Origin: Ilex aquifolium
Lineage: Eukaryota > Streptophyta > Magnoliopsida > Aquifoliales > Aquifoliaceae
DNA length: 64,000 nucleotides
NCBI GenBank assembly: GCA_951799425.1
Contig: OX637397.1
Span: 9,865,064 to 9,929,063 of the forward strand
Reading direction: 5' to 3'
How positions within the stretch are numbered: the stretch's first letter is position 1; every line of letters starts with the position of its first letter. Made by a program: the position numbers and the translations under genes. The notes beneath the pieces are model-generated. The model had not been told where the DNA came from. It saw only the letters and a program-made list of their open reading frames with translations, and made no database searches. Of the stretch, positions 18,401 through 54,203 are shown in pieces.

Positions 18401-21400
18401 TCATTTTAACAGTCTTTTATCATTGGTTGCAGGTCGGGCTCCTAACACAAAGAGGCTAAATTTGGATGCTGTAGGTGTTGAGCTTGACAGGGCACGAGCT
18501 GTGAAGGTAGCTTTTTCTTTAGCATTTTCTGGATTGGTATCTGTTGAATGATCTGCAAAAATCTAGGAAGTGTCCAAAATGTGAACAAGGGAAAATGGGA
18601 ATCGAGAATAGTTACTAGGGTGTCAAGTTCTAAACTACGTCATCCATATTTAATAGAAAAAAAATCTATACAACAGAATTTCATTTGTTAATGGATGTCT
18701 AACTCATTTCTTGACATCATAATAAAGTGGTTGATTTGCTCTGTCTCCAACACATCTGCATCTTAGTTGGCAGACGGTGATTGATGAGTTGGCTTATGAA
18801 CTCAATGCATTTTTCCCTCCGTCTTTCTTAATTCTTGCTTCTCCTTAGTATTCCTTTTTTGCATGTATATTGGATTTCCGAACTTCCACTTGAAATTCCA
18901 GCGTAACTTTTATTTGAAGTTGACATGCTTGGCCATTGAAAATTTTCAACATATTGGTGCATCCTCTTGAGTGTTCCTGAAAATATTCTTCTAAAATCCG
19001 TGCTTTTCTTGTTTCCATTAGTTTTTACTGGAACTGCAGCCATGTTGGTTCAATAGCAGCTCTTAGTGGTTTATCCCATGTCACATATATCTATTTGGTT
19101 TAATTGGATTTTGTTGGCATGTTACCTGTAATTTTTGGCGTTTCCCGTTCTTTGTTCATCATCTGGCTTCGTTTTAGGAGCCATCTATTTGCGATTTTTA
19201 CCTGTTGTTTAGTCTTTCCAAGTCAAGCTGTGTATTAACTCTAAAGGAGAAGGTACAACAGATTTATGCACAGGCCTATGTAGTTGTTGGTTCTCCATTA
19301 AGTTGTCCAAAGCACAAGTTTTTCTTGTTGTTTCTCCATTAAGCTGTGTAAAGCACAAGATGATTTTCTGATTCAACCAGCAACTGACAGTGAAGGAGGG
19401 ACTGCAGATTCCGCAAATGCCGATGTATTCTCATTCCTTCAAATCTGGCTTCATTTAATGGCTCATCTAGTGATGATTTTTAGTAGTCGTCGGCTGCTCT
19501 TTTTAAGTCAAGCTGTGTATTGACTTTGAGATGGAGATTATTCCTATTCTTGTATTGTTAGGCCATGTTTGGGTTTCTATACATTGTCCGAGAGTATCTT
19601 GTTAAGTTCTTATTTGGGTTCTCTTATTGTTATTTTATTGTTTGTCCATTGTGATATAAATTTGTTATCCTTCTTTATTTGCGGATAATTTTGTATTAGT
19701 TGATGAAAGTAAAGAAGGAATTAATAATAAATTAGAAATATGACGAGAAGCTCTAGAATAAAAAATATTTAGGATAACTAGGACTAAAGTTGAATATATA
19801 AAATGTAACTTTGGTGAAAGAAGGTATCACAACTGAGATGTAGTAAAAATTGAAAATTAAGAGATATGGAGGAGTGAACACTTTAATTTTTTGGGGTCTA
19901 TTATTCGAGCGTGAGATTGGTGACGATGTTACCTATAGAATTAATGCAGGATAGACTAAATGAAGAAAGTATATGGTGTATTGTGTGATAGACGCATATG
20001 CTTTTAGTTAAAAGAAAGGTTCTATACAATGGCCATAAAACCCGCTATGCTTTATCCTACTGTTAGAATTAGGAATGAATATATCCCAAAAAAAGTAAAG
20101 GTAATACATATAGGTGATAAATTAAGGGAGAATCGAATTAGGTGGTTTGAACATATTTATAGATGGCCTACTATGGCACCGGTGAGAAAGAGTGATATGA
20201 TAGTTATTGACGGCAAGTGTAGAGGTAGATGAAGACTAATATTAACTTTAGAGGAACTTGTAAAGAAAGATATAATAGCTTATTCTTTAACATAATGGTG
20301 AAAGAGGGTTGATGTAGTAGACTCAAAAAATGTTGGGACAAGGCTATGTTATGTTGAGTTGAGCTCACATTGACACAAGGAAGTTTGCGATATTATTGTG
20401 AAGATATTGTTTGCGTCAAGTTTTATGTATGTTGGGGCCTTTTTTTTATCATCTCTTACAGGTTGACGAGTACTCACGCACCAGCATACCTAGCATATGG
20501 GCCATCGGTGATGTTACAAATCGCATAAATCTCACTCCTGTGGCCTTAATGGAAGGGACCTGTTTCGCAGTATGTGTTCCTACTGGACCTTCTTCAACTA
20601 TCATTGTTGAGATTCTATTGCCTATGTTATTATTGATTGATATCTTCTGTTTGGCCAGGTATGTAATTAGTTTGTTCATGTTCATTCATTTTTTTGGCAT
20701 TGCCTGCCTGCAGAAAACTGTTTTTGGTGGAGAGCCTAGCAAACCGGACTATAGTAACGTACCTTGTGCCGTGTTCTGGTACCAGCTCTCTTTTTCTTAC
20801 ACAGTTTCTCTATTGCCTTTTCTTTTGTTATTGAAACCATGTCAGATTCATCATCTGGTGAAGGTGCTTATATTAAATATTCGTCATTTTTTCTTTGTGA
20901 TTTGTAGACCGAAATATTCTTCGTCCACTGCAATCTGTTTTCGGTGGGATGACTACTCTGTTTATATCCCTTGCTGGAATAAGATCCCATCCATTGTCAG
21001 TGCTTGTGCAACTCTAGTAGAGTTGACTTTTAAGGTGGACAATTCCTTAAGTATATTTGAAAAAAATTTAAATGGACATATATTACTTAAGTTTGTCATT
21101 TTAGTATGGTAGCTTTCACACATATACACAAAATAGAGACACATAAAGATTTCTCGTAACCTTTGAGGGTAATCTCCACCCTGCGTCAAATCTTTTTCTA
21201 TTTTCCATTTATTTTCTCTTTTGAATGGAACTTTAGTTTTTTTTTATTTTTAGTTTCTTTGTTAATTTTTTAGCTCTTAGTGGAATGGGATTGTTAATTT
21301 TTTAGCTTTTGAACCCCGGCTTTCGGATTTAACCTTATTTGATGGTGTTTACTAGAGGTTTTTCTTACCTTTGTCTTAAGCAAGGCCTTTAGAGGGCTTA

Positions 21401-35502: not shown

Positions 35503-36242
35503 CAACTTCTCGATCCTCGGAATCCGATTCTGAGGAGGAAACGACCCGCTTCCCCATCAAAGGTTCGGGCCGTAAACCGGAGTGGAGGGAAGGAAAGTGT
35601 AAAGCACAGTCCGTCAAAAATAGCGGTCTCAAACACCAACCTCGAAGGAAGGATACCCTAAGCAAAGTAGGATGGTCCACGAAACACGTAAGAGGAGAAA
35701 GGTCGTCGGAGTGGTTCCTGAAGTAGCTAAACCTCCATATCAAGAAACGAAACCCAAAACCCCACCATGGAGGGTTGAAGGGATCCAGATCGAGCAAGAA
35801 TAAAGAAAGGGGGAAGACGTACCTAGTTAAGGTGCTAGATGCAGAAAATAACCGAGAACGCAGAAACCCTAAGAATCGCCTGAAAGTCTGAAGCGAAGCA
35901 CCTCGAGAGCCAATGGAAGAGAGAGAAACGTAAGGAAATTCAAAAAGCGCAAGAATGACAAAGGCAAGGGGACTTCCCCGCTTTTATACGAAACATTCAA
36001 TGCCCTGAAAAGCTAAACTACAGGGCTCGCCTCAGGAACCGTACCGTCGGGTTCACCCGATGATGACACGTGTAAAAACCATCCCATCACAGCCGGCAAA
36101 TACCGAAGCACGCCGAACCAACGCAAAGCCTCCTGACCACGCATTCTGCCACGTATGATGTCTATGAAGAATTCGGAAAAGACACTATCTATCCCCAGGT
36201 CAGAGAAGACGTCATTCTCGTGACCAGGGGCTGGGGGGCAAC
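35503..36242 (+). mobile_element. Extra copy of the retrotransposon's 3' internal end, in front of the 5' LTR
   Basis: This 740-bp stretch matches 49815-50554, the part of the internal region just before the 3' LTR, and runs straight into the 5' LTR. It holds the promoter-side end and first 18 codons (ATG at 35557, minus strand) of antisense gene A, then breaks into host DNA at 35503. A normal single insertion would not have it. It reads as the remainder of a tandem copy (internal-LTR-internal-LTR) truncated on the left. Confidence 0.85.
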
Positions 36243-36923
36243 TGATGAGGATAGGTTTTTGGGCCTGGGCCGCCCTTAGGACCAAGCCCAAAGACCTCCG
36301 GAAAATGTTGGGTGAAAGCTCCAAAACCCAAGAAGGAATGGTCCCAACCGGCCCGTATTCGTCTCTTAGCCCACGACCCGAGTTAAAGCCTGTTATGCCA
36401 CGTGCTCCAAGGACAAAGGAAACCGGCTCTGATTTCTCAGAGTTACTCCCTGCAAAAAACAGAGAGAGGTGGAGCCGAACGAACACTGGCAGTCGTGGGC
36501 ACAGCATCGCCGGCGGTCAGAATGGCTTGCAGGAAAAGGACGAACGGTCCCCACAAGATCAAAGAGAGGAAGAAAAAGAAACCCTAAGAAAAGGGGGGAT
36601 ATAAATAGAACAGTAGAAGAGAGGGAGGCATCCAGTTCCAGGCTTTCCTCCCCAGTACCCTAGACCAGACAAACGGAAAACATTGTATATGGCCCTGCGC
36701 CTATAATTTCCTGGTAGTCAGCCAGATTCAATATACACAGTCAAGGAGCAAGAGCCTCCATTACAGTGGACGTAACCCAAGCTCTTCGGCTAGGGTGAAC
36801 CACTTATATCAGTTGCCTGCCATAGTTTAACAGCAATCTCCTTAGAGAACCAATTTCGTAAAAACAAACCCAAAAACACAAGATCCACTTGGGCCGGAGG
36901 GATTAATTTCCGAGGACCCATCA
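36243..36923 (+). repeat. 5' LTR of the Tat/Ogre-type retrotransposon
   Basis: 681 bp, starting TGATGAGG and ending ACCCATCA, so the ends are TGATG...CATCA. The same sequence occurs at 50555-51235 with a constant offset of 14312. The start is set by the purine-rich tract before it, the end by the primer-binding site after it. A TATAAATA promoter element is at 36600-36607. Confidence 0.92.
36600..36607 (+). promoter_or_regulatory. TATA box of the 5' LTR
   Basis: TATAAATA follows a G-run in the middle of the LTR, so U3 would be about 36243-36630. The same site in the 3' LTR is at 50912-50919. The distantly related LTR at 53433-54203 has a matching TATATAAATAG on its sense (minus) strand. Confidence 0.6.
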
Positions 36924-37184: not shown

Positions 37185-37427
37185 GCTCATCAGTTCCCTC
37201 TTCCCCGATTTCCCCCGGCTCGACAAGAGCCACCTCCGCTCCAAGAAGAGCACGGCGACGATCCCCCGCTCCAAGAAAGACAAGTTCCGCCCAACGGGAT
37301 AACTGAGCTCCATGAGCGCAGCCATTCTGGCGAAAACCACCGAAGAAGACATCCCGAAGAGCGGGACGACGAAGCTCAGAGCAGGGCAAGGGCCGCCTAC
37401 CAAGAAGATAGGCCCTACCCCCAGAAC

Positions 37428-40400
37428 ATGAAGGACCATGCTTGGGAGCAGGAAATCCGTGAGCTCCAGCGAGAACTAGGCAATATGAAAGAAGTGGTTA
37501 AGGGGCGGACCCCCGACACCATGGACGCTTTGGTTCAGCAAACGGAGTCACCATTCGCCCCAGAAGTCCTCCATTTCCCCCTCCCTCAAAAATTCCGGAC
37601 CCCTTCGATAGAGGCATTTGACGGGACCAAAGACCCCGTTGACCATCTAAACCTGTATAAGAATCAGATGGAGCTTCAAGGATACCCGGATCCTATCCGC
37701 TGCCAGGCATTTGCCATCACCCTCAGAGGGTCGGCCATAGCCTGGTTTAACCAGATACGACCAGCGTCGATCTCGTCCTTCAGAGAACTGTCCATACAGT
37801 TCGTGTCCCACTTCATCGGGGCAAGAACTTATAGGAAGCCGTCCTACCACCTACTGAGCATAAAACAGGGACCCAACGAGTCCCTCCGAAGCTACGTACA
37901 ACGCTTCAACCAGGAGTGCCTGAAGGTAGAAAGCGTGGACGACAAGTTCGCATTGACGACCTTCATGTCCGGACTTGGGGTCCAGTCCAAGGATCTTCTC
38001 TTCTCGATTGCGAAGAATCCTCAAGCCACCATGGCCGAAGTGTTGGCGAAAGCCGAGAAGTACATAAACGGCGAAGAGGCCCTCCGCCTGAAGGGGAGTA
38101 CGGCGACGACGGACGGAGAGAAGAGACGGAGGGATCACAGTCCCAAGAAGGAAAAGAGACGCGACCGATCTCCGAGGAGGGATCGCTCCCCAAGAAGAGG
38201 GAGAGAACCTTCCCCTAAGAGGAGAGGGAACGTACGAGATCGCCTGGGACCTCCTCCCCAGGAACTGCAACAGCGGTATGCGCCAGCACGGCTCCCACCC
38301 CTCGTCACCTCAATAGCCCAGGTTCTTCATGAGGTGCAGAACGAGAGGTTCGTACGGTGGCCACCACGGATGAAGTCCGACCCCGGTAGAAGGGATGCCA
38401 CCAAGTACTGCGCTTACCATAAAGACACAGGCCACGAGACGAACGACTGCATCCAGTTGAAAAAGGAGATCGAATACTTAATTCAGAGAGGCCATCTCCG
38501 CCATTACATAGCAGGAGAGCAGAGAGCACAGAACAATCAAGGGCGAGAAGCCCGAGCTGTAGCCGAGCCACCGCAACATCAACAAGCCATCGGAGAGATC
38601 CGAGTCATCTCCGGAGGTTTCGCCGGCGGAGGCGAATCAATCTCAGCTCGGAGAGCGCACGCCAGAAAGGCCCGGTCAGACGACTTCTTCACGGTTCAGG
38701 CTGTCAGCAAAGTGCCCCGCCGAGATGTAGAAATCACCTTCTCGGATGCAGACCTAGAAGGATGCCAGCACCCTCACGATGACCCTTTAGTCATAAAAGC
38801 AATCATAGCAAACAAGACCATACATCGGGTGCTAGTTGATAACGGCAGCTCAGCAGATATCATCTTCTTGGCGACCTTCGAGAAGCTTGGAATAGAGAGG
38901 TCGAGACTGGAACCCGTGAAAACCCACCTCTTAGGATTCTCGGGAGAAAGAGTCCTGCCAGTCGGATCACTACCGCTGGTCCTCACCATAGGAGACCCGC
39001 CCTGCCAAGTCACCACCACCACCCGTTTCCTAGTGGTGGACGCCCCGTCTGCCTACAACGTCTTGTTGGGGAGGCCGTCCCTCAACTCCATTAAGGCAGT
39101 GCCCTCTGCGTATCACTTGGTGATGAAGTTCCCAACCGAAAGTGGAGTGGGGGTGGTGAGAGGGGACCAACGCCTCGCCAGGGAATGCTACGTGGCCTCC
39201 ATGCGGCAGAAGGAGGTGGAGTCAGTGCAGCTGGAGGACTTGGATATGAGGGATGAGGTGGAAGCCCGACCTTCCCCCTCAGAACAGTTGGAGCCAGTGC
39301 AGCTGGGGGAGGACCCGGAGCACGTGGTCTTTGTGGGCTCCACGCTGTTACCAGTCATCAAGGAGAAACTCATCTCCTTCCTAAAAGAAAACGCCGACGC
39401 CTTCGCTTGGAAACAAGAAGACATGGAGGGGATAGACCCCGCTGTGATCGTGCACCGTCTCAGCGTCGATCCCAATTGCAAACCGGTAAGGCAGAAGAGG
39501 AGAAGCTTTGCGCCAGACAGGCAAAGGGCGATCAATGAAGAGGTAGACAAACTATCACGCGCCAATGCCATCAGAGAAGTCGACTATCCGACCTGGCTAG
39601 CTAACGTCGTCCTGGTGAAGAAAGTGAACGGCAAATGGCGGCTCTGCATCGATTTCACGGACCTCAACCGAGCATGCCCAAAGGATAGTTTCCCACTGCC
39701 TCGGATTGACCTCATAGTCGACGCGACAGCCGGTCACGAGCTCCTGAGCTTCATGGATGCCTTCTCAGGATACAACCAAATCCGGATGGACCCAAGTGAC
39801 CAAGAAAAGACCTCCTTCGTCACAGAACAGGGGACCTTTTGCTACCAGGTGATGCCATTCGGACTGAAAAACGCGGGAGCCACCTACCAGAGGTTGGTTA
39901 ATCGAATGTTCAGAGAGAAACTAGGCTTAACCATGGAAGTATATATAGATGATATGCTGGTGAAATCGCTTAAAGCCGAGGCCCACATTCAGCACCTCAG
40001 GGAGTCGTTCGAGATCATGAGGAGATACCGAATGAAGCTGAACCCCGCAAAATGCGCCTTCGGGGTGTCAGCAGGAAAGTTTTTGGGCTTCATAGTCAAC
40101 AGCCGAGGCATCGAGGCAAACCCAGAAAAGGTGAGAGCGGTCCTCGAAATGAAGCCCCCCACCACCACCAGAGAAATCCAGCGCCTAACAGGGAGAATAG
40201 CCGCGCTCAACCGCTTCGTATCGCGCTCTAGCGATAAATGTCAGCCGTTCTTCAAGGTTCTTAAAGCAGCCTTCCAGTGGGATGAAAAATGCGAAGAAGC
40301 CTTCCAGGCCCTAAAGGTCTACCTAGCGTCCACACCCGTGCTGGTAAGCCCTCAAGAGGGAGAAGTTCTGACACTCTACCTCGCGGTCTCAGACTTCTCG

Positions 40401-42515
40401 GTCAGCGCCGCACTGGTCAGAGACAAAGACCGGATCCAGCTGCCGGTCTACTTCTGCAGTAAAGCCCTTCGAGGCGCCGAAGAAAGATATCCAAAGATGG
40501 AAAAGCTCGTGCTGGCCCTGCTAGTCGCCGCTCGGAGGTTAAGACCATATTTTCAGGCGCACACCATCGAAGTCCCAACAGACCAGCCGATGAGGCAGGT
40601 CCTGCACAAACCCGAAGCCTCGGGACGGCTGATAAAGTGGGCAATGGAGCTTAGCGAATTTGATGTCAAGTTCAAGCCTAGGACCGCCATCAAAGGACAA
40701 GTCCTGGCAGACTTTCTCGCCGAGTTTACCTCCCCACCCGAGGAGAACGAAGAAAGCCAAGACCATGTCTCCGACCTTCCGACCTGGAAATTAAGCGTAG
40801 ATGGGGCTTCAAACGTGCAGGGAAGTGGTGCCGGGCTCATCCTGACATCACCAGAAGGATATGACCTGGAGTATGCCTTGAGGTTCGACTTTCAGGCATC
40901 CAACAACGAAGCCGAGTATGAAGCCCTCATAGCGGGTCTGAACTTGGCCCTTTCAATGGAAGCTCAACAGATCGTGGTGTACAGTGACTCGCAACTGGTA
41001 GTCAGGCAAGTCGAAGAAGAATATGCCGCCCGGGACGAGAAGATGGCGCTGTACCTAACAGAAGTGCAAAGACTACTGAGGAAATTCGTCTCAGCCGAGC
41101 TCATCCAAATCCCCAGAGAAGCCAATCAGCGGGCGGACGCCCTTGCCAAGCTGGCCATTACCGGCAGTAAAGACTTACCAGGGCAAACGCCCGTCGAAGT
41201 CCTAGCTCGCCCCAGCATTCAGCCTGAGGACGAAGCAACCACGGAAGCCCAGGCTATGCCAGTTGAAGAAGAGGCTTCATGGATGGACCCCATCATATCC
41301 TTCTTACAGGACGGAGTACTGCCAGAGGACCCGAAAAGCGCCTCCAAACTAAGAACCAGGGCGGCAAGGTTCACACTGATCCAAGGTAATCTATACAAAA
41401 GAGGTTTTTCTTTTCCCTTAATGAAATGTGTGTCAGGAACGGAAGCAAACTACATCCTGAGAGAAATCCATGAAGGCATGTGTGGCAATCACATTGGTGC
41501 AAAGACATTAGCCAGCAAAGCCCTACGGCAAGGCTACTTCTGGCCGACTATGTCCAAGGACGCCAAAGAAATAGTGAAGAAATGCCAAGCTTGTCAGCTT
41601 CATGGGAACCTGCCACACTGCCCACCTGAACTCCTCACCCCGGTGGTCAGCCCTTGGCCCTTTCAACAGTGGGGATTGGACATCTTAGGACCCCTACCAG
41701 TAGGAGTTGGGCAGTGCAAGTTTGTCGTGGTCGCAGTAGACTATTTTACCAAGTGGGCCGAAGCCGAACCTCTGGCAAAAATCACAGCTCAGAAGGTCAA
41801 GAGTTTCGTTTGGAAATCCATAATTTGCCGCTTCGGAGTCCCCAGAGCAGTGGTCTCGGATAACGGGAAACAGTTCGACAATCCTATGTTCATAAATTTC
41901 TGTAGCAATTTGGGAATCAAAAATTTCTTCTCGGCACCAGCCCACCCGCAGTCTAACGGGCAAGCCGAGGTGACCATCAGAACCATCAAACTGGCACTCA
42001 AGACCAGGTTGGAGGCGTCTAAGTCCCAATGGGTAGACTACCTCCCCGCAGTGTTATGGGCATACCGAACAACTACCCGAACTGCGACTGGCGAAACCCC
42101 TTTCAGTCTGGCATTCGGAACGGAGGCAATGGCTCCCGTAGAAGTAGGGGTGTCCACCGCGAGAACCGAATTGTTCAATCCAACACAGAACGAAAGATCC
42201 CTGCTGGTCAACCTTGACCTCCTGGACGAGAAGAGAGACGAGGCCCTACAACGAGTCTCCTCCTATCAAAGGAGTACGGCAAGGTACTATAACAAACGAG
42301 TAAGAAGCAGAGGCTTTAAACCAGGAGATCTAGTGTTGAAAAAATTGCTCCCAGCCAGGAAAGACCCGGCCCACGGCAAGTTGGGACCAAACTGGGAAGG
42401 GCCATACGTGGTGAAAAGGATCATCCGACCTGGGAACTACCAGCTACAAACTGAGGAAGGCAGGGACCTGCAGCACTCGTGGAATGCGGACCACTTGAAA
42501 CGATATTACCAATAG
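37428..42515 (+). CDS. Gag-Pol polyprotein, Tat/Ogre-type Ty3/gypsy retrotransposon
   Basis: 1695 residues from the first ATG after the amber stop; the frame is open from 37185. Domains in order: retrotransposon Gag (about 50-215); an Arg/Ser-rich basic linker (230-275); a zinc knuckle C-x2-H-x4-H-x4-C at 328-341; aspartic protease with DNGSSAD at 471-477; reverse transcriptase with YIDD at 839-842; a first RNase H (about 980-1100); a second RNase H-like domain (about 1118-1245) with Asp1125, Glu1163, Asp1187 and Asp1237; and integrase with its His1348/His1355/Cys1386/Cys1389 zinc site and a DD35E triad Asp1418, Asp1478, Glu1514. No chromodomain is seen. The double RNase H and the lack of a chromodomain place it in the Tat lineage (family knowledge). 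All catalytic residues are present, so the pol part looks intact. Confidence 0.96.
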   Translation: MKDHAWEQEIRELQRELGNMKEVVKGRTPDTMDALVQQTESPFAPEVLHFPLPQKFRTPSIEAFDGTKDPVDHLNLYKNQMELQGYPDPIRCQAFAITLRGSAIAWFNQIRPASISSFRELSIQFVSHFIGARTYRKPSYHLLSIKQGPNESLRSYVQRFNQECLKVESVDDKFALTTFMSGLGVQSKDLLFSIAKNPQATMAEVLAKAEKYINGEEALRLKGSTATTDGEKRRRDHSPKKEKRRDRSPRRDRSPRRGREPSPKRRGNVRDRLGPPPQELQQRYAPARLPPLVTSIAQVLHEVQNERFVRWPPRMKSDPGRRDATKYCAYHKDTGHETNDCIQLKKEIEYLIQRGHLRHYIAGEQRAQNNQGREARAVAEPPQHQQAIGEIRVISGGFAGGGESISARRAHARKARSDDFFTVQAVSKVPRRDVEITFSDADLEGCQHPHDDPLVIKAIIANKTIHRVLVDNGSSADIIFLATFEKLGIERSRLEPVKTHLLGFSGERVLPVGSLPLVLTIGDPPCQVTTTTRFLVVDAPSAYNVLLGRPSLNSIKAVPSAYHLVMKFPTESGVGVVRGDQRLARECYVASMRQKEVESVQLEDLDMRDEVEARPSPSEQLEPVQLGEDPEHVVFVGSTLLPVIKEKLISFLKENADAFAWKQEDMEGIDPAVIVHRLSVDPNCKPVRQKRRSFAPDRQRAINEEVDKLSRANAIREVDYPTWLANVVLVKKVNGKWRLCIDFTDLNRACPKDSFPLPRIDLIVDATAGHELLSFMDAFSGYNQIRMDPSDQEKTSFVTEQGTFCYQVMPFGLKNAGATYQRLVNRMFREKLGLTMEVYIDDMLVKSLKAEAHIQHLRESFEIMRRYRMKLNPAKCAFGVSAGKFLGFIVNSRGIEANPEKVRAVLEMKPPTTTREIQRLTGRIAALNRFVSRSSDKCQPFFKVLKAAFQWDEKCEEAFQALKVYLASTPVLVSPQEGEVLTLYLAVSDFSVSAALVRDKDRIQLPVYFCSKALRGAEERYPKMEKLVLALLVAARRLRPYFQAHTIEVPTDQPMRQVLHKPEASGRLIKWAMELSEFDVKFKPRTAIKGQVLADFLAEFTSPPEENEESQDHVSDLPTWKLSVDGASNVQGSGAGLILTSPEGYDLEYALRFDFQASNNEAEYEALIAGLNLALSMEAQQIVVYSDSQLVVRQVEEEYAARDEKMALYLTEVQRLLRKFVSAELIQIPREANQRADALAKLAITGSKDLPGQTPVEVLARPSIQPEDEATTEAQAMPVEEEASWMDPIISFLQDGVLPEDPKSASKLRTRAARFTLIQGNLYKRGFSFPLMKCVSGTEANYILREIHEGMCGNHIGAKTLASKALRQGYFWPTMSKDAKEIVKKCQACQLHGNLPHCPPELLTPVVSPWPFQQWGLDILGPLPVGVGQCKFVVVAVDYFTKWAEAEPLAKITAQKVKSFVWKSIICRFGVPRAVVSDNGKQFDNPMFINFCSNLGIKNFFSAPAHPQSNGQAEVTIRTIKLALKTRLEASKSQWVDYLPAVLWAYRTTTRTATGETPFSLAFGTEAMAPVEVGVSTARTELFNPTQNERSLLVNLDLLDEKRDEALQRVSSYQRSTARYYNKRVRSRGFKPGDLVLKKLLPARKDPAHGKLGPNWEGPYVVKRIIRPGNYQLQTEEGRDLQHSWNADHLKRYYQ

Positions 42516-42616
42516 AGCCTTCTCGTGAAGGAAGAAGAGTTATTGTAAAAAGATCCGATTTTATCAATGAAGAGATACTAAAGTTTTCTGAAAGTTTGCA
42601 CCGCACAGTATCAACA

Positions 42617-43441
42617 GACTTTTCAGTCTAAGGGCTCGTAAGCCTAAGAGCTCGTAAGCTCAGGAACTACAGACTTTTCAGTCTAAGGGCTCGTAAGCCT
42701 AAGAGCTCGTAAGCTCAGGAACTGCAGACTTTTCAGTCTAAGGGCTCGTAAGCCTAAGAGCTCGTAAGCTCAGGAACTACAGACTTTTCAGTCTAAGGGC
42801 TCGTAAGCCTAAGAGCTCGTAAGCTCAGGAACTGCAGACTTTTCAGTCTAAGGGCTCGTAAGCCTAAGAGCTCGTAAGCTCAGGAACTGCAGACTTTTCA
42901 GTCTAAGGGCTCGTAAGCCTAAGAGCTCGTAAGCTCAGGAACTGCAGACTTTTCAGTCTAAGGGCTCGTAAGCCTAAGAGCTCGTAAGCTCAGGAACTGC
43001 AGACTTTTCAGTCTAAGGGCTCGTAAGCCTAAGAGCTCGTAAGCTCAGGAACTGCAGACTTTTCAGTCTAAGGGCTCGTAAGCCGAAGAGCTCGTAAGCT
43101 CAGGAACTACAGACTTTTCGGTCTAAGGGCTCGTAAGCCCAAGAGCTCGTAAGCTCAGGAACTGCAGACTTTTCCGTCTAAGGGCTCGTAAGCCCAAGAG
43201 CTCGTAAGCTCAGAAACTGCAGACTTTTCAGTCTAAGGGCTCGTAAGCCCAAGAGCTCGTAAGCTCAGTAACTGCAGACTTTTCAGTTTAAGGGCTCGCA
43301 AGCCTAAGAGCTCGTAAGCTCAGGAACTACAGACTTTTCAAGTCTAAGGGCTCGTAAGCCCAAGAGCTCGTAAGCTCAGGAACTACAGACTTTTCAGTCT
43401 AAGGGCTCGTAAGCCTAAGGGCTCGTAAGCTCAAGTTCTAC
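42617..43441 (+). repeat. 15-copy 55-bp tandem array in the retrotransposon 3' untranslated region
   Basis: The unit begins GACTTTTCAGTCTAAGGGCT and contains GCTCGTAAG twice. Copies are nearly identical on the left and carry a few substitutions plus one single-base insertion (near 43341) on the right. The array starts about 100 bases after the pol stop and ends before an A-run at about 43520. Variable 3' UTR tandem arrays are a known feature of Tat/Ogre elements and a suspected source of satellite DNA. Confidence 0.95.
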
Positions 43442-43635
43442 AGAAAGACAACGAGTTTGAAAGCTCGATAACTCAAAACAGGCAGTTTTCCCAGTTCAAC
43501 AGATGACCACATTACTTAGCAAAAAAAAAAAAAAAAAAACAACAACAAACAAAACTGGGAAACAAAAGCCCGGAATTCTATTTCACCATGAGTGAACAGT
43601 TCGAAAGGAACAAGTACATAGAAGTTATACAAAAA

Positions 43636-44699
43636 TCAGGCCCCCTGGCCTCCTACCCCTCCTAAAGTTTCCTCAGCCACCCCCTCCATCGGGGTATCTC
43701 CCTCCTCCGCCTTCTGAAGTCGAACAGCCGCCACCTTAAGCCTGGCATTCTCCTCCTTCAGAAGATCTCTCTCTCTCTCCACCTCCGCCAACTTCCTCTT
43801 CAGGACCTCCACCTCAGTATCCTCCGGATCCGCCTCCTCAGGCTCATCAACAAAGGAGAGCGAGCACTGAATCCTGGTTGAGCTTCCCCCGATCCCGTAA
43901 CGGATTAGGTTCTGGGGAGTAGCAAGAGCAGAGTAAGGACGGGGAGAAGCTTTCTCCACCATCCCAACATGGAAGGTCTCCAATGGAGTAAGAGCTGGAA
44001 TACCTGCACAGCACATAAAAGGTTAGCAAAGTTGATTACTGTTCAGACAAAAAAAAAGGGTGGAGATCAAGGAAGTGGATTAGCCCGTTTGTGGCTACCT
44101 CTCTCCCGAAAGCTCGTCCAAGAACGAGGAACCCAAACATGTCCTTCAGTCCCTACGGCAGATTCCCAGGAGTCCCCCGAGACGAAACAGAAGCGTCTAG
44201 ACCACCCCTCAGGGGAAGTGGGAATATCAGCAATCAATGGTGGATGAAAATACCACTTAAAAGAGAGAGAGCTGAAGAAAGGAGGAAAGTCGAAAGAGAG
44301 ATCAAGGAAGTAGAAGAACTCGGAAACTGTTGGAAAGGCTTCAAAACCTTGCATACGCCAGAAAATGAAGAAACTGACCATGGTAGCCCACCCCTGGGGG
44401 GAAAGACGAGAAGGACACAGTCCATGGTGAGACAAGATCCGGGCGAAATCTGGATGAAGAGGGAGTCGAAGACCAAACTCAAACGCATCCACAAAAAAAG
44501 AGACCTCGCCCGGAATAGGCATACTGCAAGGTTCATCAGGAGTAGGAGCCCTAACTCCCAGATCCGCCGGAAGGTCGTATTGTTCCTTCAAATCAGCAGC
44601 TTCCGCGCCCGTAAGCTGAGAAGGAAGAAGAAAGATAGAACACCAGTCTCCCTTGAGTGACTCACGGGCTCGCTGCTTGAAAAGGGGAGAAGAATCCAT
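43636..44699 (-). CDS. Antisense gene C: putative gypsy-type transposon protein (PF04195-like)
   Basis: Two exons on the minus strand: 44699-44099 (200 codons plus one base) and 44003-43636, joined in frame by GT-AG borders, encode 322 residues. Exon 1 carries the family core (about residues 30-195): FGLRLPLHP, RLSPQGW, SPEGW..RFCFVSGDSWE and VPRSW. Exon 2 holds an acidic then Glu/Lys/Leu-rich segment likely to form a coiled coil. It is shorter than the two related genes upstream and lacks their conserved C-terminal motif. Its place within a retrotransposon, antisense to pol, matches the known antisense ORFs of Tat elements. Function is unknown. The ATG was chosen because no in-frame ATG precedes the conserved part; upstream in-frame sequence has no similarity to the related genes. 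Confidence 0.75.
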
Positions 44700-45145
44700 C
44701 GCTGCAAAAGTACGAGAACACAGAAAGCCTTTCTGAAAAGCGATAAGACAAACAGGTATTAATAGTGTCCAAAGATGACTGTTGAGATCCCGCAATGAAA
44801 GCAGCATTGAATATTCGCTCAACTTACGAAGCAGTTGGTAAGCCGCCTGGGGGGCTGGCTTAAATCCAAGTCAAATATTGTTAAAAAAAAACGTATACAT
44901 ACGTAACTTATGGCAGGTACTTGCAGCAAATCCAAGTAAGGAAGCCCAGACCTCAAGAAATAATACTACTCCAAACAGGCCAAGGCCTCCTCGGAGTAGG
45001 GGGGCACAGGAGTATATAACACAAGGAACAACTAACAAGAACACCACAAGTTTGGTTTTCCATTCCAAAAAGGGAAGTTCTACTACAAAATACGTCAACT
45101 AAAGAAGAAGGTTACAAAAAATATCAGCTATGAAGATCCCGGTTC

Positions 45146-47113
45146 TCAAGACCGATCTGCAGGAGGGGTAGCATCAGTAACATCAGGAGCCCCGCCACTT
45201 GAAGAAGCATCAAACCTTGGCTGAAATTGCTCAAGGTCTAGATCGGGATATCTCTCCATCGCCTGGTCGGCAAAGTTAAAGAACCCGTCGACAAAAGCCG
45301 TGGCCGCCTCCAGCCTCGCCTTCTCAAGCTCTTGTCGTTGATCTTCTACAAGCTGGTGTTCGGCAGCTAGAGACCTATTAAGCTCGGCAGCCTCAGCCCG
45401 GGACTCCCTTAGCTCATTTCCCATAAGAGTGCGAGCAACAGCTGCATTCAGTAGTTTTTCCTTGTCAGCCTCCCGCTCTTCCTTTAAACAGGCGAGTTCG
45501 TCCCTTAGAGACACTTCAGCAGATGTACTGGCAATCAGTTGTCTGAAAGTACGAGCCCGCTGTTCGAGGACCTGCTCCAATTCCCTCTCAGTGGCCAAGC
45601 CCCAATGCAACAGCTCGTTGCCTTGCCGACGGGCGTCAAGAACCTCGGCACCTCTGCTCTGAACATCGCTCCTCAGCATAAAGATTTCCCTCCCAAGAGC
45701 GCAGACGTGCGTCGCCGACTGAAAACATAAGGGACAATGTAAGATACCGAGAAGTTCGAAACAGATAAAAAAAAAAAAAAAAAACACCAAGGCGTACCTC
45801 CAGCAGGGCATGAAGGGCGTCACGGCTCCGGATTTGGAATGGAAGATCCACGGAGCGACGCAGATCAGCTCGGGGAATCAATTCCATCAGAGCCCGGCTA
45901 CTCAAACTTACGTCCCGAAGTAGGCCGGCCTCTGGGTCAGCAATAGAGGCCCGGGGGGCACGAAGCGAGCTGGAACCAGCTGCAGCAGATAAAATAGTGC
46001 CTCGCCGAACAGGCCCTCCAACGGGGTCAATCGCCACAGTACCCGCAGTGGCTTCACTGACGACCGGCTCAGATGTCAACTCCGGGGCCTCGGGAGAAGG
46101 AGCAGGAGCACTGGATCCAAGAACAGGAGCCTCGGCGGCCGGAACAGGGACCTCACCAGAAGTGGTACCCTCTTCCAACCTCGTCCTCTTCGCCGGGGGT
46201 CCTACGGCCCTACCCCGCCTTCTTTCATCTATGCGCTCCATGATCATGTGGCGCTGCATCACCAAGTAGGAAGGAACTACGCATACAAAGATCAAAAAAT
46301 TAGCAAGGTTCCGAACTAAGGAGCAGAGAGATAAAGGGCATTGTCTATATGCAATCACCTGGCGCCAAGGGGACTCCGGGATGCAACAGCTCAACATAAG
46401 AAAAGGGCAGACGAGCGCGGGCTTGGTCAACTCGGGCTTGCTCAGAAGAGTCAAGGGGCGGGAGCTCTCCTGCATTAGGAACCGGTGTCACTGTTAGTAC
46501 ACGAGAACAAGCATCCGCCAAAAATCAAGGTAAAAAGCTTACTTAAGTTTCTGCGGCTCCCCCAGGCGGTAGGAACTCTAGCGGACCCCGGAAACTGGGA
46601 ACCAAACTCCCAGCCATCTCCAGAGATGAAGAAATATCTCCTTATCCACCCCTCAGGATTCGGCGGGAGATCCCGGATGGGAATTTCTCCCCCTCGCCTG
46701 GGGACGAAGTGATAAAACTCGGATACCTCCTCGGGGCGGAAAAAGTGAAGAAACTCCCTCAAGTTGGCCCTAGCCTGAGGAAACATCCTCCCCCATGCCG
46801 CGATGAAGGTCAGTAGCACCGCCCAGCCAGATGGGAGGAGCATGGCGGGACAGAAACTGAAAAAATGAAGGACCTCTCGTATCAAACTGGGCAGGGGAAA
46901 CCGAAGTCCTAGCGAAAAGGGGGCCTCGAAGAAGCAAGCTTCACCAACCACCAAGCTGTGAAACCTGCGCAAGTCCGCAGAACGCACGATAACGCCGGGG
47001 GGAAAAACGAAGCGCCTAGCAAGGAGCTGGGCCTCCTCCCCGTCAATTTCGCTTGCTTCAACATTTCCGAAGACTCGCTCCATGATTTCGAATGAAGAAG
47101 AAGGAGAAGCCAT
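45146..47113 (-). CDS. Antisense gene B: putative gypsy-type transposon protein (PF04195-like) with coiled coil
   Basis: Four exons on the minus strand: 47113-46543, 46469-46359, 46276-45798 and 45718-45146. All have GT-AG borders and a continuous frame, for 577 residues. Exon 1 carries the family core (about 25-185): LGLRFPLP, LLPSGW, NPEGWIRRYFFISGDGWE and VPTAW. Exons 2-3 are a Pro/Ala-rich linker with a basic patch (AKRTR). Exon 4 is a long Glu/Arg/Leu-rich coiled coil closing with FVDGFFNFADQ and PDLDLEQF, a motif shared with gene A. A weak TATA-like CTACAAATAGG lies about 80 bases upstream (around 47195, minus strand). No stop or frameshift is seen. Function is unknown. Confidence 0.78.
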
Positions 47114-47677
47114 GAATGTAGGAATCAGAGAAGATTTTTCAGAAGCTGGGATTTTGCACGGTTAATGAAGAACAATCATTCCCCGGAGGCCTATTTGTAG
47201 GCACTGCAGGACAAGCCTTGCCACTGACGCCGAAGGGAGTTAATGCACGTCTCTCGCCATTAATGAAGTGAACACGTGGCGTCGTGGGGTTTTTCAGGCG
47301 CCACGATCGAGGGACCACTAAACCCTCTGACGGCGCACGTTCTCAAGCAAACAAAACCGTCGGATCACCACTACAAAAAAGGCATCTGGAAAGGACCAAA
47401 ATAGCCTTAAAGAAGTTCAAAGGACCCAAGGGGAAAGCGTGAAGGTCAGCTCGGTTCAGAGAAGCTGAAGTCAGTGCTAAAGGAAAATACAACGCAGCAA
47501 CAGGTCAAAGAAATTTGTAGCAAAGGCACTACACAACAATCATAAGAAAAGAAAAGGGAAAAACTACAAGAGTTTTCATTTCAACTTATAAAGAGATTAC
47601 AATCAAGCGTTCCGCAAAAAAGACTACTTGAAGAGTCACAAGAAAGTTGAAAACAGCAGGAAGGCCTCAAATCAACC

Positions 47678-49869
47678 TCAGGAAGCAATCTCTTCATCAC
47701 CTGCCCCCTCACCAGAAGCCTCTGCTGGCGTACATGGTCCCTCCACCGCTGCCACCACAGGCCCAGGCACCTTCTCGGCATCGGGAGCCATACCCTCAGG
47801 GATATCAGAGGTCCCGGCCTCCTCAGCCGCCACGACAGCCTCCTCGGAGTCCAGCATTGGTACGAAAGGGTCCAAGTCCAGCTCAGGATGAGCCTCCTCA
47901 AGTTGATCCTTAAGGTTTAGAAAACCCTTCACAAAGCCGGAGGCGCAGTCCTCCTCGAGCTGCGAAACACGAGACCGCAAAGACAGCAGCTCAGAATCCC
48001 TGGCAACCAGGTCAGCCTCGGCGGTCTTGAGTTTGTTCTCCTTGGAATCCATAACCTTCACAAAATCCTGAAGGCGAGCATCCATCTCGTCGTTAATCCT
48101 CTTCAATTCAGCGGCCTCTGAGGTCAGAATCTTCACCTTCTCCTCGGCGGCCTCCTTGCTCACTAAAAGGGCGGCCCTGGACCCCTCTGCCTTCGAAAGC
48201 TCCTCGTTGTAGTGGAACCCAAGCATTTTTACGCAAGCGAGCGTCTGAGAAGAAAAGAGGGTCAGTTAATAGCCTCCCCGGAGACCTCGGTATGAAGAAA
48301 TACAGGAGAAAAGGAAAAGACAAGGATAGAAGATACCTCTGCCATGCCCCGAATAGCGCGATCGACCTTCCTGTCAAAAGGAACCCGCGTGGCTACCCCG
48401 GGATCTGGAATTGGAACAAGGTCGGATAGCGCAGCGACTGCAACCTCGGGATCACGCAGAAAACCATCCCCTTTATCCCTAGGCGGGGATCGAGCCAGGC
48501 CCGTTTTCCCACCCTCCTGAGGGACGGAGCGGGAGAGAGTTCCCGAAGCCTCGTGTTGTTTCTCCGAAGTTCCCCCGGTCAATGATTCGCCCCTAGGAGC
48601 TTCAACGGGGAGCAAGGGGAGAGGCGCATCCTCGCGGGGAAGGCGGACTTCTCCCTTCTGCTCAGAAGTAGTAGGTGGGAGGTCAGGAACCGACGCACCA
48701 GTAGGTAACAGATGGGAACCCGTCACCACCTTCCTTTTCTTCCTCGACTTCTCGGCATTAGTGAATACCGCCATTACCAAATCTTTCTTCATAGGGGCAG
48801 TTGGGGGAGCAGGGGGTGATGAAGGTACTGAGGATTGCTCAACTGGAGGCCCAAGCTCGTAGAGAGCTAGATTTTCGTCCGTCACCAAATCGAAGAAAGG
48901 CTGCAACCCAAAATCCTCGGCTCTAGCAACCCTCGCCGCTTCCTCGACCCCAAGGACAGGACGGTAATCTGCAAATTAGAAATAAAGTCAGTAACAGAAG
49001 TGCAGGGAAAGTAGGAGACGCAGCTAAAATTAAAAGGCCTTACTTATGTTCCTTGGGGCCCCCCAAGACCTGGGAATGAGAGGAACGTCCCCTGGTTTCC
49101 CGGAAAGCTCCCAGGAATCACCCCTAACAAAGAAAAACTTGGGTTTCCACCCTTTGTTGGAAGAAGGAAGCCCGGTGATCAAATTCTTCGCTTTAACCCT
49201 TTTCGAAAAATAAAGAAAACCCGCGGAAGGGGATGACTTGAGTTGAAAAAGGGAGGCAAATTCATTAATGGAGGGCTGAGAGTCGTTCCCACTCTTCAAC
49301 CAATGAACGAGAAGTCCGATCAGAAGACCCCATCCATTTGGAGATAGCCGGGCAGGGTATATGTTGTAAAAAGAAAGAACAATCCGGATAAAAGGATGAA
49401 CAGGAAACCGCAAACCAGCTCGGAAAGTGGATTCGTAAAAGCAAACCAGGCCAGGAATAGAGGAATTGCACCTCTCTTGCTTTTCAGGAGAATGTAAGAG
49501 GACGGAGTCAGGGAAACAATACTCCCGCCTCAGTTCGTCTAAGTCCTCATCGCTGAGACAACTGGGAGTCGATGCGGCACAACAGGCCACGTCGGCTTGG
49601 TCCCGACGAGCTCTTTTCCTAGGAATAGGGGAAGGAACTGGTTTTGACTCTTTAGTCTCCGACGCAACAAAAGAATCTGGAGGAAGCGAGGAAAGAGGAT
49701 GAGCTTCTTCTACAAGGGCGGACCCAGAGGCAGAAACTCCGTGAGCGGATCCCGACGCGGCCCTATCAACAGAACTACCGCTCTGAGAACCTGGAGTACC
49801 TACCTCAACCTCCTCAACTTCTCGATCCTCGGAATCCGATTCTGAGGAGGAAACGACCCGCTTCCCCAT
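47678..49869 (-). CDS. Antisense gene A: putative gypsy-type transposon protein (PF04195-like) with coiled coil
   Basis: Three exons on the minus strand: 49869-49044 (275 codons plus one base), 48968-48337 and 48244-47678, giving 674 residues in one frame. The N-terminus is Ser/Glu-rich with a basic patch PRKRARRD (83-90) that may be a nuclear signal. The family core follows at about 105-270: AGLRFPVHP, RLSPNGW, SNKGWKPKFFFVRGDSWE and IPRSW. Exon 2 is a low-complexity linker with KKRK; exon 3 is a coiled coil ending in FVKGFLNLKDQ and PELDLDPF, as in gene B. The only in-frame ATG before the core is at 49869; frame without ATG extends to 50109. A TATAAAAG on the minus strand at 50293-50300 could drive it, leaving a 5' UTR of about 400 bases. 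Function is unknown. Confidence 0.8.
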
Positions 49870-50292
49870 CAAAGGTTCGGGCCGTAAACCGGAGTGGAGG
49901 GAAGGAAAGTGTAAAGCACAGTCCGTCAAAAATAGCGGTCTCAAACACCAACCTCGAAGGAAGGATACCCTAAGCAAAGTAGGATGGTCCACGAAACACG
50001 TAAGAGGAGAAAGGTCGTCGGAGTGGTTCCTGAAGTAGCTAAACCTCCATATCAAGAAACGAAACCCAAAACCCCACCATGGAGGGTTGAAGGGATCCAG
50101 ATCGAGCAAGAATAAAGAAAGGGGGAAGACGTACCTAGTTAAGGTGCTAGATGCAGAAAATAACCGAGAACGCAGAAACCCTAAGAATCGCCTGAAAGTC
50201 TGAAGCGAAGCACCTCGAGAGCCAATGGAAGAGAGAGAAACGTAAGGAAATTCAAAAAGCGCAAGAATGACAAAGGCAAGGGGACTTCCCCG

Positions 50293-50300
50293 CTTTTATA
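50293..50300 (-). promoter_or_regulatory. Candidate TATA box for antisense gene A
   Basis: Minus-strand TATAAAAG lies between the 3' LTR and gene A. Its copy in the extra left segment is at 35981-35988. The distance to the ATG is about 430 bases; a donor-like AG/GTACGT on the minus strand near 50135 hints at a 5' UTR intron. Confidence 0.4.
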
Positions 50301-50537
50301 CGAAACATTCAATGCCCTGAAAAGCTAAACTACAGGGCTCGCCTCAGGAACCGTACCGTCGGGTTCACCCGATGATGACACGTGTAAAAACCATCCCATC
50401 ACAGCCGGCAAATACCGAAGCACGCCGAACCAACGCAAAGCCTCCTGACCACGCATTCTGCCACGTATGATGTCTATGAAGAATTCGGAAAAGACACTCT
50501 CTATCCCCAGGTCAGAGAAGACGTCATTCTCGTGACC

Positions 50538-50554
50538 AGGGGCTGGGGGGCAAC
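50538..50554 (+). other. Polypurine tract of the retrotransposon
   Basis: A G-rich tract, AGGGGCTGGGGGGCAAC, directly precedes the TGATG start of the 3' LTR. It is interrupted by pyrimidines but sits where second-strand priming is expected. Confidence 0.6.
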
Positions 50555-51235
50555 TGATGAGGATAGGTTTTTGGGCCTGGGCCGCCCTTAGGACCAAGCC
50601 CAAAGACCTCCGGAAAATGTTGGGTGAAAGCTCCAAAACCCAAGAAGGAATGGTCCCAACCGGCCCGTATTCGTCTCTTAGCCCACGACCCGAGTTAAAG
50701 CCTGTTATGCCACGTGCTCCAAGGACAAAGGAAACCGGCTCTGATTTCTCAGAGTTACTCCCTGCAAAAAACAGAGAGAGGTGGAGCCGAACGAACACTG
50801 GCAGTCGTGGGCACAGCATCGCCGGCGGTCAGAATGGCTTGCAGGAAAAGGACGAACGGTCCCCACAAGATCAAAGAGAGGAAGAAAAAGAAACCCTAAG
50901 AAAAGGGGGGATATAAATAGAACAGTAGAAGAGAGGGAGGCATCCAGTTCCAGGCTTTCCTCCCCAGTACCCTAGACCAGACAAACGGAAAACATTGTAT
51001 ATGGCCCTGCGCCTATAATTTCCTGGTAGTCAGCCAGATTCAATATACACAGTCAAGGAGCAAGAGCCTCCATTACAGTGGACGTAACCCAAGCTCTTCG
51101 GCTAGGGTGAACCACTTATATCAGTTGCCTGCCATAGTTTAACAGCAATCTCCTTAGAGAACCAATTTCGTAAAAACAAACCCAAAAACACAAGATCCAC
51201 TTGGGCCGGAGGGATTAATTTCCGAGGACCCATCA
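50555..51235 (+). repeat. 3' LTR of the Tat/Ogre-type retrotransposon
   Basis: 681 bp, TGATG...CATCA, the partner of 36243-36923. I found no difference between the two LTRs by eye. The flank after it is GCTTT; no matching 5-bp duplication exists at the left edge because the left side is truncated inside internal sequence. Confidence 0.92.
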
Positions 51236-53432: not shown

Positions 53433-54203
53433 TGATAATGCTCAAAATCCTTTCACCCAGTTACAGAACAGCGAAGGGGTTTGGGCCCAGTGGGGGCTCT
53501 ATGTGTGCTTGAGACAGTGTGAGGTAAACGCTTGAAGAAGAAACAAAGACAAAAATATAAGTGGTTTATCTCAGCCGAAAGGCTAAGGTTATGTCCACTG
53601 TAATGAAGATTATTGCTCCTGAGGTAATGGTTACAGTAATTTGACTGAGAGCTTTTTACAGAGTATTTTTTAGACTGTCTATGGTGATTCCCTTTTTACA
53701 GTGGCTTCATCTTCTATTTATATATTTGGCCGTGTAGGGTTTCTGCAATTCTTCATTTTCTGGCTGATTATGTGGTCCCCTCATCCTTTGTCCTGTAACG
53801 GGGTCTACCAGTTTGACGTCTTCCACGCCCATGATCCTTGAAACAGAATGTGTGCGATATTCCCTTTGTTAGGATATTCCCTTTGTTAGGTAATATTTGT
53901 TCATTAGAGTTGTCAGACATTGTCCTCTTCTCCTCTGGCCACGTGACGCGACCGGGGTTACTTGAGGCATGCCTTGTGCCGAGCTCTTTATCCTTGAGCA
54001 GGTACCTACCGTGGAGCTTGCTGGGACCAAGCTGGTATATATCCCGAGTTGGACAATCCTGTGCTTCCATGGCCCTGGGCTACGGCCCAGTCTTATGATA
54101 TGGTGGGTGTTATGCAGATGGGTCATTTGGATTGTTCTTTAACTAGCCCATTGAGTATTTTGGGCTCTAAGTGAAGGCCCTGACTTTAAATCCATCATCA
54201 TTA
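53433..54203 (-). repeat. Probable solo LTR, distant relative of the large retrotransposon
   Basis: On the minus strand it carries a TATATAAATAG (about 53713-53723) and, about 110 bases downstream, a CATTACAGTGGACATAAC segment. The intact LTR has the same order and spacing (TATAAATA at 36600, CATTACAGTGGACG near 36758). Its ends are near TGATAATG (left) and CATCATCA (right). TTTAC occurs on both sides (53428-53432 and 54204-54208), but the CA end is three bases short of it, so the exact border is uncertain. Confidence 0.65.

Follow-up and report, generated by a model that had tools for sequence, protein, structure and literature searches.

The 64,000 bp window analysed here (Ilex aquifolium, assembly GCA_951799425.1, contig OX637397.1, positions 9,865,064 to 9,929,063) contains a retrotransposon flanked by long terminal repeats (LTRs) that, from its domain order and antisense TRP28 open reading frames (ORFs), is of the Tat/Retand type (Ty3/gypsy). 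On the strand opposite to its gag-pol ORF it carries three genes, A, B and C, placed head to tail between a 55-bp tandem array and the 3′ LTR in the order C, B, A from the LTR side (Table 1); their span, 43636–49869, is exactly that proposed in the initial annotation. All six modelled introns (one in A, three in B and two in C) have GT-AG boundaries and the three proteins contain no internal stops. Intron 1 is in phase 1, splitting a codon after its first base, and occupies the corresponding position in all three genes, soon after a conserved W(G/T)xxR. B and C have in common a phase-0 intron directly before the coil exon, and the linker of B contains one additional intron. These models and common intron positions bear out the claim that the genes are intron-containing paralogues, the splicing itself being predicted. 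The longest stop-to-stop frames on the gene strand are 421, 283, 267, 243, 237 and 228 amino acids (aa); in 300 Markov sequences the longest frame has a mean of 155 aa and a maximum of 269 aa, with a frame of at least 187 aa in 39, so that for the shorter exons frame length is little proof.

Table 1. Features of the retrotransposon and its antisense genes (window coordinates).
Feature	Coordinates	Strand	Description and basis
Gene C	47678..49869	-	674 aa; exons 49869-49044, 48968-48337, 48244-47678; TRP28 domain, two basic NLS-like stretches, long predicted helix, C-terminal motif
Gene B	45146..47113	-	577 aa; exons 47113-46543, 46469-46359, 46276-45798, 45718-45146; divergent TRP28-like domain, linker with basic stretch, coil exon, C-terminal motif
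Gene A	43636..44699	-	322 aa; exons 44699-44099, 44003-43636; TRP28 domain and short second exon
Putative TATA box of C	50290..50301	-	GTATAAAAGCGG, identical in four related copies; internal region, not LTR; ~430 nt before ATG
Putative TATA box of B	47190..47200	-	CTACAAATAGG in window, CTATAAATAGG in four related copies; ~85 nt before ATG
gag-pol	37185..42515	+	Single ORF, 1776 aa: gag, reverse transcriptase (RT), RNase H, second RNase H (RVT_3), integrase; ORF and profile matches
55-bp tandem array	42615..43433		14.9 copies; repeat detection
3′ LTR	50555..51235	+	681 bp, TGATG...CATCA, GGGGCTGGGGGGCAAC directly before; genome-wide start-pattern pairs
5′ LTR	36243..36923	+	Identical to 3′ LTR; followed at ~36925 by TTGGCGCCGTCTGTGGGAAC, resembling a primer binding site; repeat comparison
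Extra internal sequence	35503..36242	+	740 bp, copy of 49815-50554 with one mismatch, outside 5′ LTR; repeat comparison

The mutual paralogy of the three genes, also part of the initial annotation, is clear from blastp comparisons (A–B, 33% identity, E 8e-25; A–C, 33% identity, E 1e-36; B–C, 25% over 575 columns, E 4e-39) and from Smith-Waterman scores that are 35 (A–B), 52 (A–C) and 53 (B–C) standard deviations above the mean of 500 shuffles. Their assignment to PF04195 (Transposase_28, TRP28; Pfam gathering cut-off 26.2 bits) holds for A (32.3 bits) and C (37.5 bits), but not for B, which scores 21.2 bits, a miss of the sort that the initial annotation had named as a refutation. The same is seen in relatives, with A-type scores of 33.4 and 36.2, C-type scores of 42.8 and 42.9, and B-type scores below the cut-off in three relatives (21.4, 19.0 and 20.4). 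In view of its blastp match to C, B is therefore classed as a homologue of C and not as a Pfam member.

Of the common domain order ending in a coiled coil that had been proposed, the long coil exon is present in B and C only; gene A has a short and different second exon instead. B and C alone have the C-terminal motif FVxGFxNxxDQ...PxLDLxxF (FV(K/D)GF(L/F)N...P(E/D)LDL..F), which was missing from the motifs first listed. C exon 3 is predicted to form a single 117-residue helix (predicted local distance difference test, pLDDT, of 86–98 by tens of residues, from a two-row alignment), in keeping with the coiled coil proposed for gene C. A exon 2 (43636–44022) has a weak match to Mis12 (E 0.0021), below the cut-off. 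A Foldseek search with the C tail gave three matches at E ≤10 and none at 0.001, a PDB sequence search gave none, and searches for relatives gave 40 pattern matches in viral_contigs and 68 in genome_contigs, none of which was confirmed.

Basic stretches are present in C (PRKRARRD and SRKKRKVV) and in B (PPAKRTRLEE), and are read here as putative nuclear localisation signals (NLSs); SRKKRKVV of C and KRTRLEE of B are unchanged in four relatives, and PRKRARRD is slightly variable. C is 91–95% identical to the related copies L056 and L057 in its TRP28 and coil segments, and 76% (L056) and 82% (L057) identical in the linker holding SRKKRKVV. The corresponding values are 94% for the TRP28 segment, 85–88% for the linker and 83–90% for the coil of B, and 83–93% for the TRP28 segment and 68–85% for exon 2 of A.

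Further copies were sought in the assembly to which the window belongs (800 Mb, 103 contigs). The best 150 scored candidates were considered (from 7018 for the B first exon, 7191 for A and 8182 for C), and the resulting copy counts are lower bounds because only best-scored matches are listed. Among the best 150 of 7018, the B first exon has 16 matches at 99–100% identity, window included. A C match is present 1–4 kb upstream at 123 of the best 150 B matches and an A match 1–5 kb downstream at 110; the order C-B-A is complete at 97, neither C nor A is present at 14, and two wrong orders (C downstream, A upstream) were found at none. Median spacings are 2540 bp from C to B and 2456.5 bp from B to A. 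Twenty copies were examined, 15 of them near copies (L039–L053) and five from related families (L054–L058), whose main aligned stretches are 74.5–87% identical in DNA. The copies were chosen by B identity, which biases them toward an intact B.

Ratios of nonsynonymous to synonymous divergence (dN/dS; Nei-Gojobori) were obtained for the window against L054, L056, L057 and L058. They are 0.15, 0.16, 0.19 and 0.16 for A, 0.22, 0.21, 0.19 and 0.21 for B, and 0.22, 0.22, 0.19 and 0.21 for C, whereas two wrong frames in the same comparisons give 1.08–1.67, confirming that the open frames of all three genes are under selection as first suggested. L054, L056 and L058 are close to one another (synonymous divergence, dS, 0.01–0.05), so that these are about three independent comparisons, not four. 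In the four related copies the ATG is kept in 12/12 gene copies and GT-AG in 24/24 introns; with the conserved C-B-A order and the dN/dS values, this identifies A, B and C as maintained genes, each under purifying selection. An intron in the 5′ untranslated region of A is not claimed, its donor being kept and its acceptor lost in three of these four relatives.

Three entries were dropped from the dN/dS ranges: L055, in which a rearrangement has displaced A and the greater part of B (ratios 0.60 and 0.68) and C gives 0.22 with both introns kept; L026, which is the same copy as L055 (B ratio 0.61); and the rearranged L038 (B ratio 0.51). Eight further B copies (L030–L037) give ratios of 0.13–0.23, with one or two stops in four of the eight and one acceptor lost in L031, and C exon 3 alone gives 0.15–0.33 in 14 loci, five of which are L054–L058 again. 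All three genes are free of stops and frameshifts in 10 of the 15 near copies (L040, L041, L042, L044, L045, L046, L048, L049, L051 and L052), with 31 codons of C missing in frame from L049. The lesions in near copies affect A in L039, L047 and L053 and B in L043, L050 and L053. In the related group, stops or frame differences are present in A of L054, L056 and L058 (A is displaced in L055) and in C of L054, L055 and L058, and L057 is clean in all three genes. This pattern would be that of insertions of a maintained family as they age.

Antisense transcripts of this region could instead act as RNA, through double-stranded RNA and control by small interfering RNAs, with incidental reading frames, and antisense transcription of such regions is described in Grande and Retand (PMC7264820). 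As the sole explanation this is contradicted by dN/dS values of 0.15–0.22 in the coding frame only and by the conservation of splice sites in three genes, and it is very improbable; an additional RNA effect beside the proteins is possible. Three diverged copies kept side by side, each under strong selection, indicate that selection is on the proteins and not just on antisense RNA, and that a single kind of protein does not suffice for the element.

The triplication is old. In a tree of 30 TRP28 domains from 15 of 58 loci (matches of at least 120 residues), the A and the B domains each group across elements in a fully supported clade, as do those of C with support of 92/91, although both support marks are reached by only 4/23 inner branches and the program issued a long-branch warning. 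Branches inside the clades are very short next to the stems of B, A and C (1.71, 1.45 and 0.46 changes per site). Between paralogues, dS is saturated (A–B and A–C) or above 2 (B–C), compared with 0.24–0.78 between families. As each of the three genes has a clade of its own that spans families, and as paralogues are far more distant from one another than families are, the triplication predates these element families. The initial annotation had proposed capture of a single gene by the element and its expansion there, and a recent capture followed by multiplication would account for three paralogues in one element; the family-spanning clades and the paralogue dS values contradict it, nothing speaks for capture, and we regard it as scarcely credible. 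Another TRP28 family of the genome (L001–L008) is 41–42% identical to C and 28–32% identical to A or B, and is not placed by the tree. The dS of A against L054, L056 and L058 is 0.77–0.78, more than twice that of B (0.26–0.28) and C (0.34–0.37), a hint that families may have exchanged gene cassettes.

The profile matches within gag-pol are to RT (811–971), RNase H (1032–1159), RVT_3 (1206–1324) and integrase (1421–1588). Two characters point to Retand. An additional RNase H (aRH), as which we read RVT_3, is located between the RNase H and the integrase, a position that is a criterion common to Retand and Ogre (PMC6317226), and the pol-to-3′LTR region (42516–50554; 8,039 bp) is long and contains an antisense TRP28 ORF. 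The 55-bp array has ~20 units in L053 compared with 14.9 in the window; in the other fetched copies it is mostly clipped at the edge of the stretch.

The 3′ LTR does not begin near 49815; genome-wide pairing of start patterns puts its true start at 50555. The LTR start pattern occurs 147 times genome-wide; among the 100 places listed, 56 make 28 same-strand pairs 11.2–16.2 kb apart, and 13/13 near copies on contigs 1–13 (window included) sit inside such a pair. Starts at 49700, 49815 and 49910 are ruled out, since each element, including that of the window, has the patterns at 49700 and 49784 a single time, and those at 49815 and 49910 are double in the window only. The LTR start together with its left neighbour occurs 72 times; the near copies have this combination at the 3′ LTR only and the window has it at both LTRs. 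Both LTRs of the window copy (681 bp) have the same sequence, the sole mismatch of the 1422-bp repeat (at 36187) being outside them, and the insertion is young. The 740-bp internal duplicate is unique to the window copy among near copies at the three points tested, and may be an aberrant end of reverse transcription or the result of later recombination. No target site duplication was seen around the window element, the 5′ side of which bears these extra 740 bp; the LTR ends are TG...CA. A segment of 66 bp at 53555–53620, inverted and with 80% identity to part of the LTR, is perhaps a remnant of an older element.

Two open frames elsewhere in the window are probably of host origin. The frame at 1099–2406 has a glycosyl hydrolase family 116 catalytic region (PF04685, E 1.8e-146) and is probably an exon of a host gene, and the first part of the frame at 20402–21112 matches the end of the Pyr_redox_2 profile (PF07992, E 2.4e-7), probably as an exon of a host oxidoreductase gene.

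Putative promoters are positioned upstream of the antisense genes. That of C is internal because the LTR starts at 50555, and the notion of a gene C that begins inside the LTR and uses an LTR promoter fell once this start was fixed. Gene A has a weaker TATA candidate (TATTTATACC in four relatives and TATTAATACC in the window). One 11-base motif of the array has three one-mismatch matches elsewhere in the element and none in the window outside it (no significance was computed). One of the three, CTCAGGAACCG at 50343, is ~40 bp upstream of the putative C TATA box; it is perhaps a chance match, perhaps a shared site.

The reading that we favour is that three ancient antisense paralogues encode nuclear coiled-coil accessory proteins that would regulate the chromatin or transcription of the element itself. 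A, B and C would each probably be an antisense transcription unit of its own, with predicted introns that, as they are antisense to the genomic RNA, would stay in the sense genomic RNA. The products would be TRP28 proteins, and the basic NLS-like stretches of B and C suggest a nuclear location. The long helical tail of B and C should permit self-association or B–C pairing into oligomers, and A would be a short form without this tail. The most likely nuclear role would be that of element-encoded regulators acting on the element's own chromatin or transcription. Such a role is supported by the paralogy, the common introns, the dN/dS values, the C-B-A order, the TATA-like boxes, the basic stretches and the helix of C exon 3, and by the antisense protein of Grande, reported as nuclear and expressed from a promoter of its own (PMC7264820).

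Several observations count against this reading. The TRP28 domain gives no confident fold prediction (pLDDT 50.5), which leaves DNA binding without structural support, and gene A is without the long tail. The tail of B is no better conserved than its linker in L057 (0.83 vs 0.88), and the three core motifs of the 55-bp array have no near match elsewhere in the element. No genome-wide match at ≤3 mismatches was obtained for intron-free versions of the B exon 3–4 and C exon 1–2 junctions, in a search that covers two of six junctions with patterns that detect near copies only. The dN/dS ratios of near copies (0.08–1.83, from few changes) are too noisy to use, and those among L054, L056 and L058 (0.39–1.03) are noisy as well. 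On balance, a regulatory role for the trio has about an even chance of being right.

The main rival is that A, B and C would serve the retrotransposition particle or the pre-integration complex as accessory factors, acting in nuclear import, tethering or integration and not in regulation of transcription. The conserved basic NLS-like stretches and the helical tail would suit such factors, and the role has been raised for antisense ORFs in a review (PMC7264820). Separate antisense genes are, in our opinion, an odd route to a part of the particle, and we consider this rather unlikely. An improbable further reading is a three-part antisense control in which a B–C coiled-coil hetero-oligomer would be tuned by the tail-less A, with the diverged TRP28 domains binding different parts of the element (the array, the LTR or each other's promoters) and holding off host silencing.

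Antisense TRP28 ORFs are a hallmark of Retand, present in 97% of clusters in a recent survey that also describes tandem arrays in about half (Vicient 2025, PMC11963269), and Transposase_28 is reported in 23% of Retand elements (Neumann 2019, PMC6317226). The initial annotation's proposal of an undescribed system is thus only partly upheld: the antisense TRP28 ORF was known, and the three-gene set is additional to it. The text of the survey gives 57 TRP28 ORFs of at least 600 nt, and our tally of its Table 1 gives 63 clusters, two of which are without TRP28, five have short ORFs and 56 have a TRP28 ORF of at least 600 nt. With 57 ORFs against 56 clusters, there is at most one surplus TRP28 ORF in the survey, shorter or sub-threshold ORFs being outside this count. 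No three-gene set is described in the portions of the survey available to us (PMC11963269), and none appears in the titles and abstract beginnings of the mostly open literature searched. As far as these sources extend, the trio goes beyond the single antisense TRP28 gene per element described so far, yet it is within the known kind.

Many Retand elements may also carry such a trio as an ordinary trait, overlooked by surveys because B-type domains are below the Pfam cut-off (19.0–21.4 bits in four copies vs 26.2) and ORF finders ignore introns. This would be compatible with regulation by the trio, and we find it quite possible, if somewhat short of an even chance. The 2025 survey used ORF Finder (PMC11963269), and its antisense ORFs with Smc, Mis12 and mitotic-checkpoint matches may be coil exons; the weak Mis12 match of A exon 2 is in line with this and suggests that such ORFs may be exons of TRP28 genes. 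The trio is known here from one plant genome. It provides three full-length proteins with defined exon structures for testing the role of antisense TRP28 genes.

Compared with the surveyed Retand elements, the arrangement is alike in its antisense orientation, its position between pol and the 3′ LTR, the TRP28 domain and a tandem array in the same region, and differs in having three paralogous intron-containing genes under selection in a region of 8,039 bp, compared with 2,933–6,566 bp in the survey (PMC11963269). Grande gene23 of maize is likewise an antisense gene between pol and the 3′ LTR with its own promoter and a reported nuclear product, but it is described as one gene, with no mention of an intron or a paralogue set in the relevant passages of the review (PMC7264820), which urges attention to antisense and spliced transcripts. 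PvRetro13 ORF2 (SMC domain) is an antisense ORF with a coiled-coil-like domain, perhaps comparable by its description to C exon 3 or B exon 4; it is a separate ORF, whereas in the present element a TRP28-type gene has the coil as its final exon (PMC7264820). The antisense genes of human T-cell leukaemia virus, such as HBZ, also encode a nuclear protein, with no homology claimed, and have their promoter in the 3′ LTR, whereas the putative promoters here are internal (PMC11963269, PMC7264820). The anti-silencing protein VANC of VANDAL elements, likened by description, is a possible functional analogue that combines an element-encoded accessory protein with tandem repeats, although in the element described here the core array motifs are not found elsewhere in the element (PMC5735166). 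Were the three-part control to prove true, the trio would be a retrotransposon counterpart of VANC with a division of labour.

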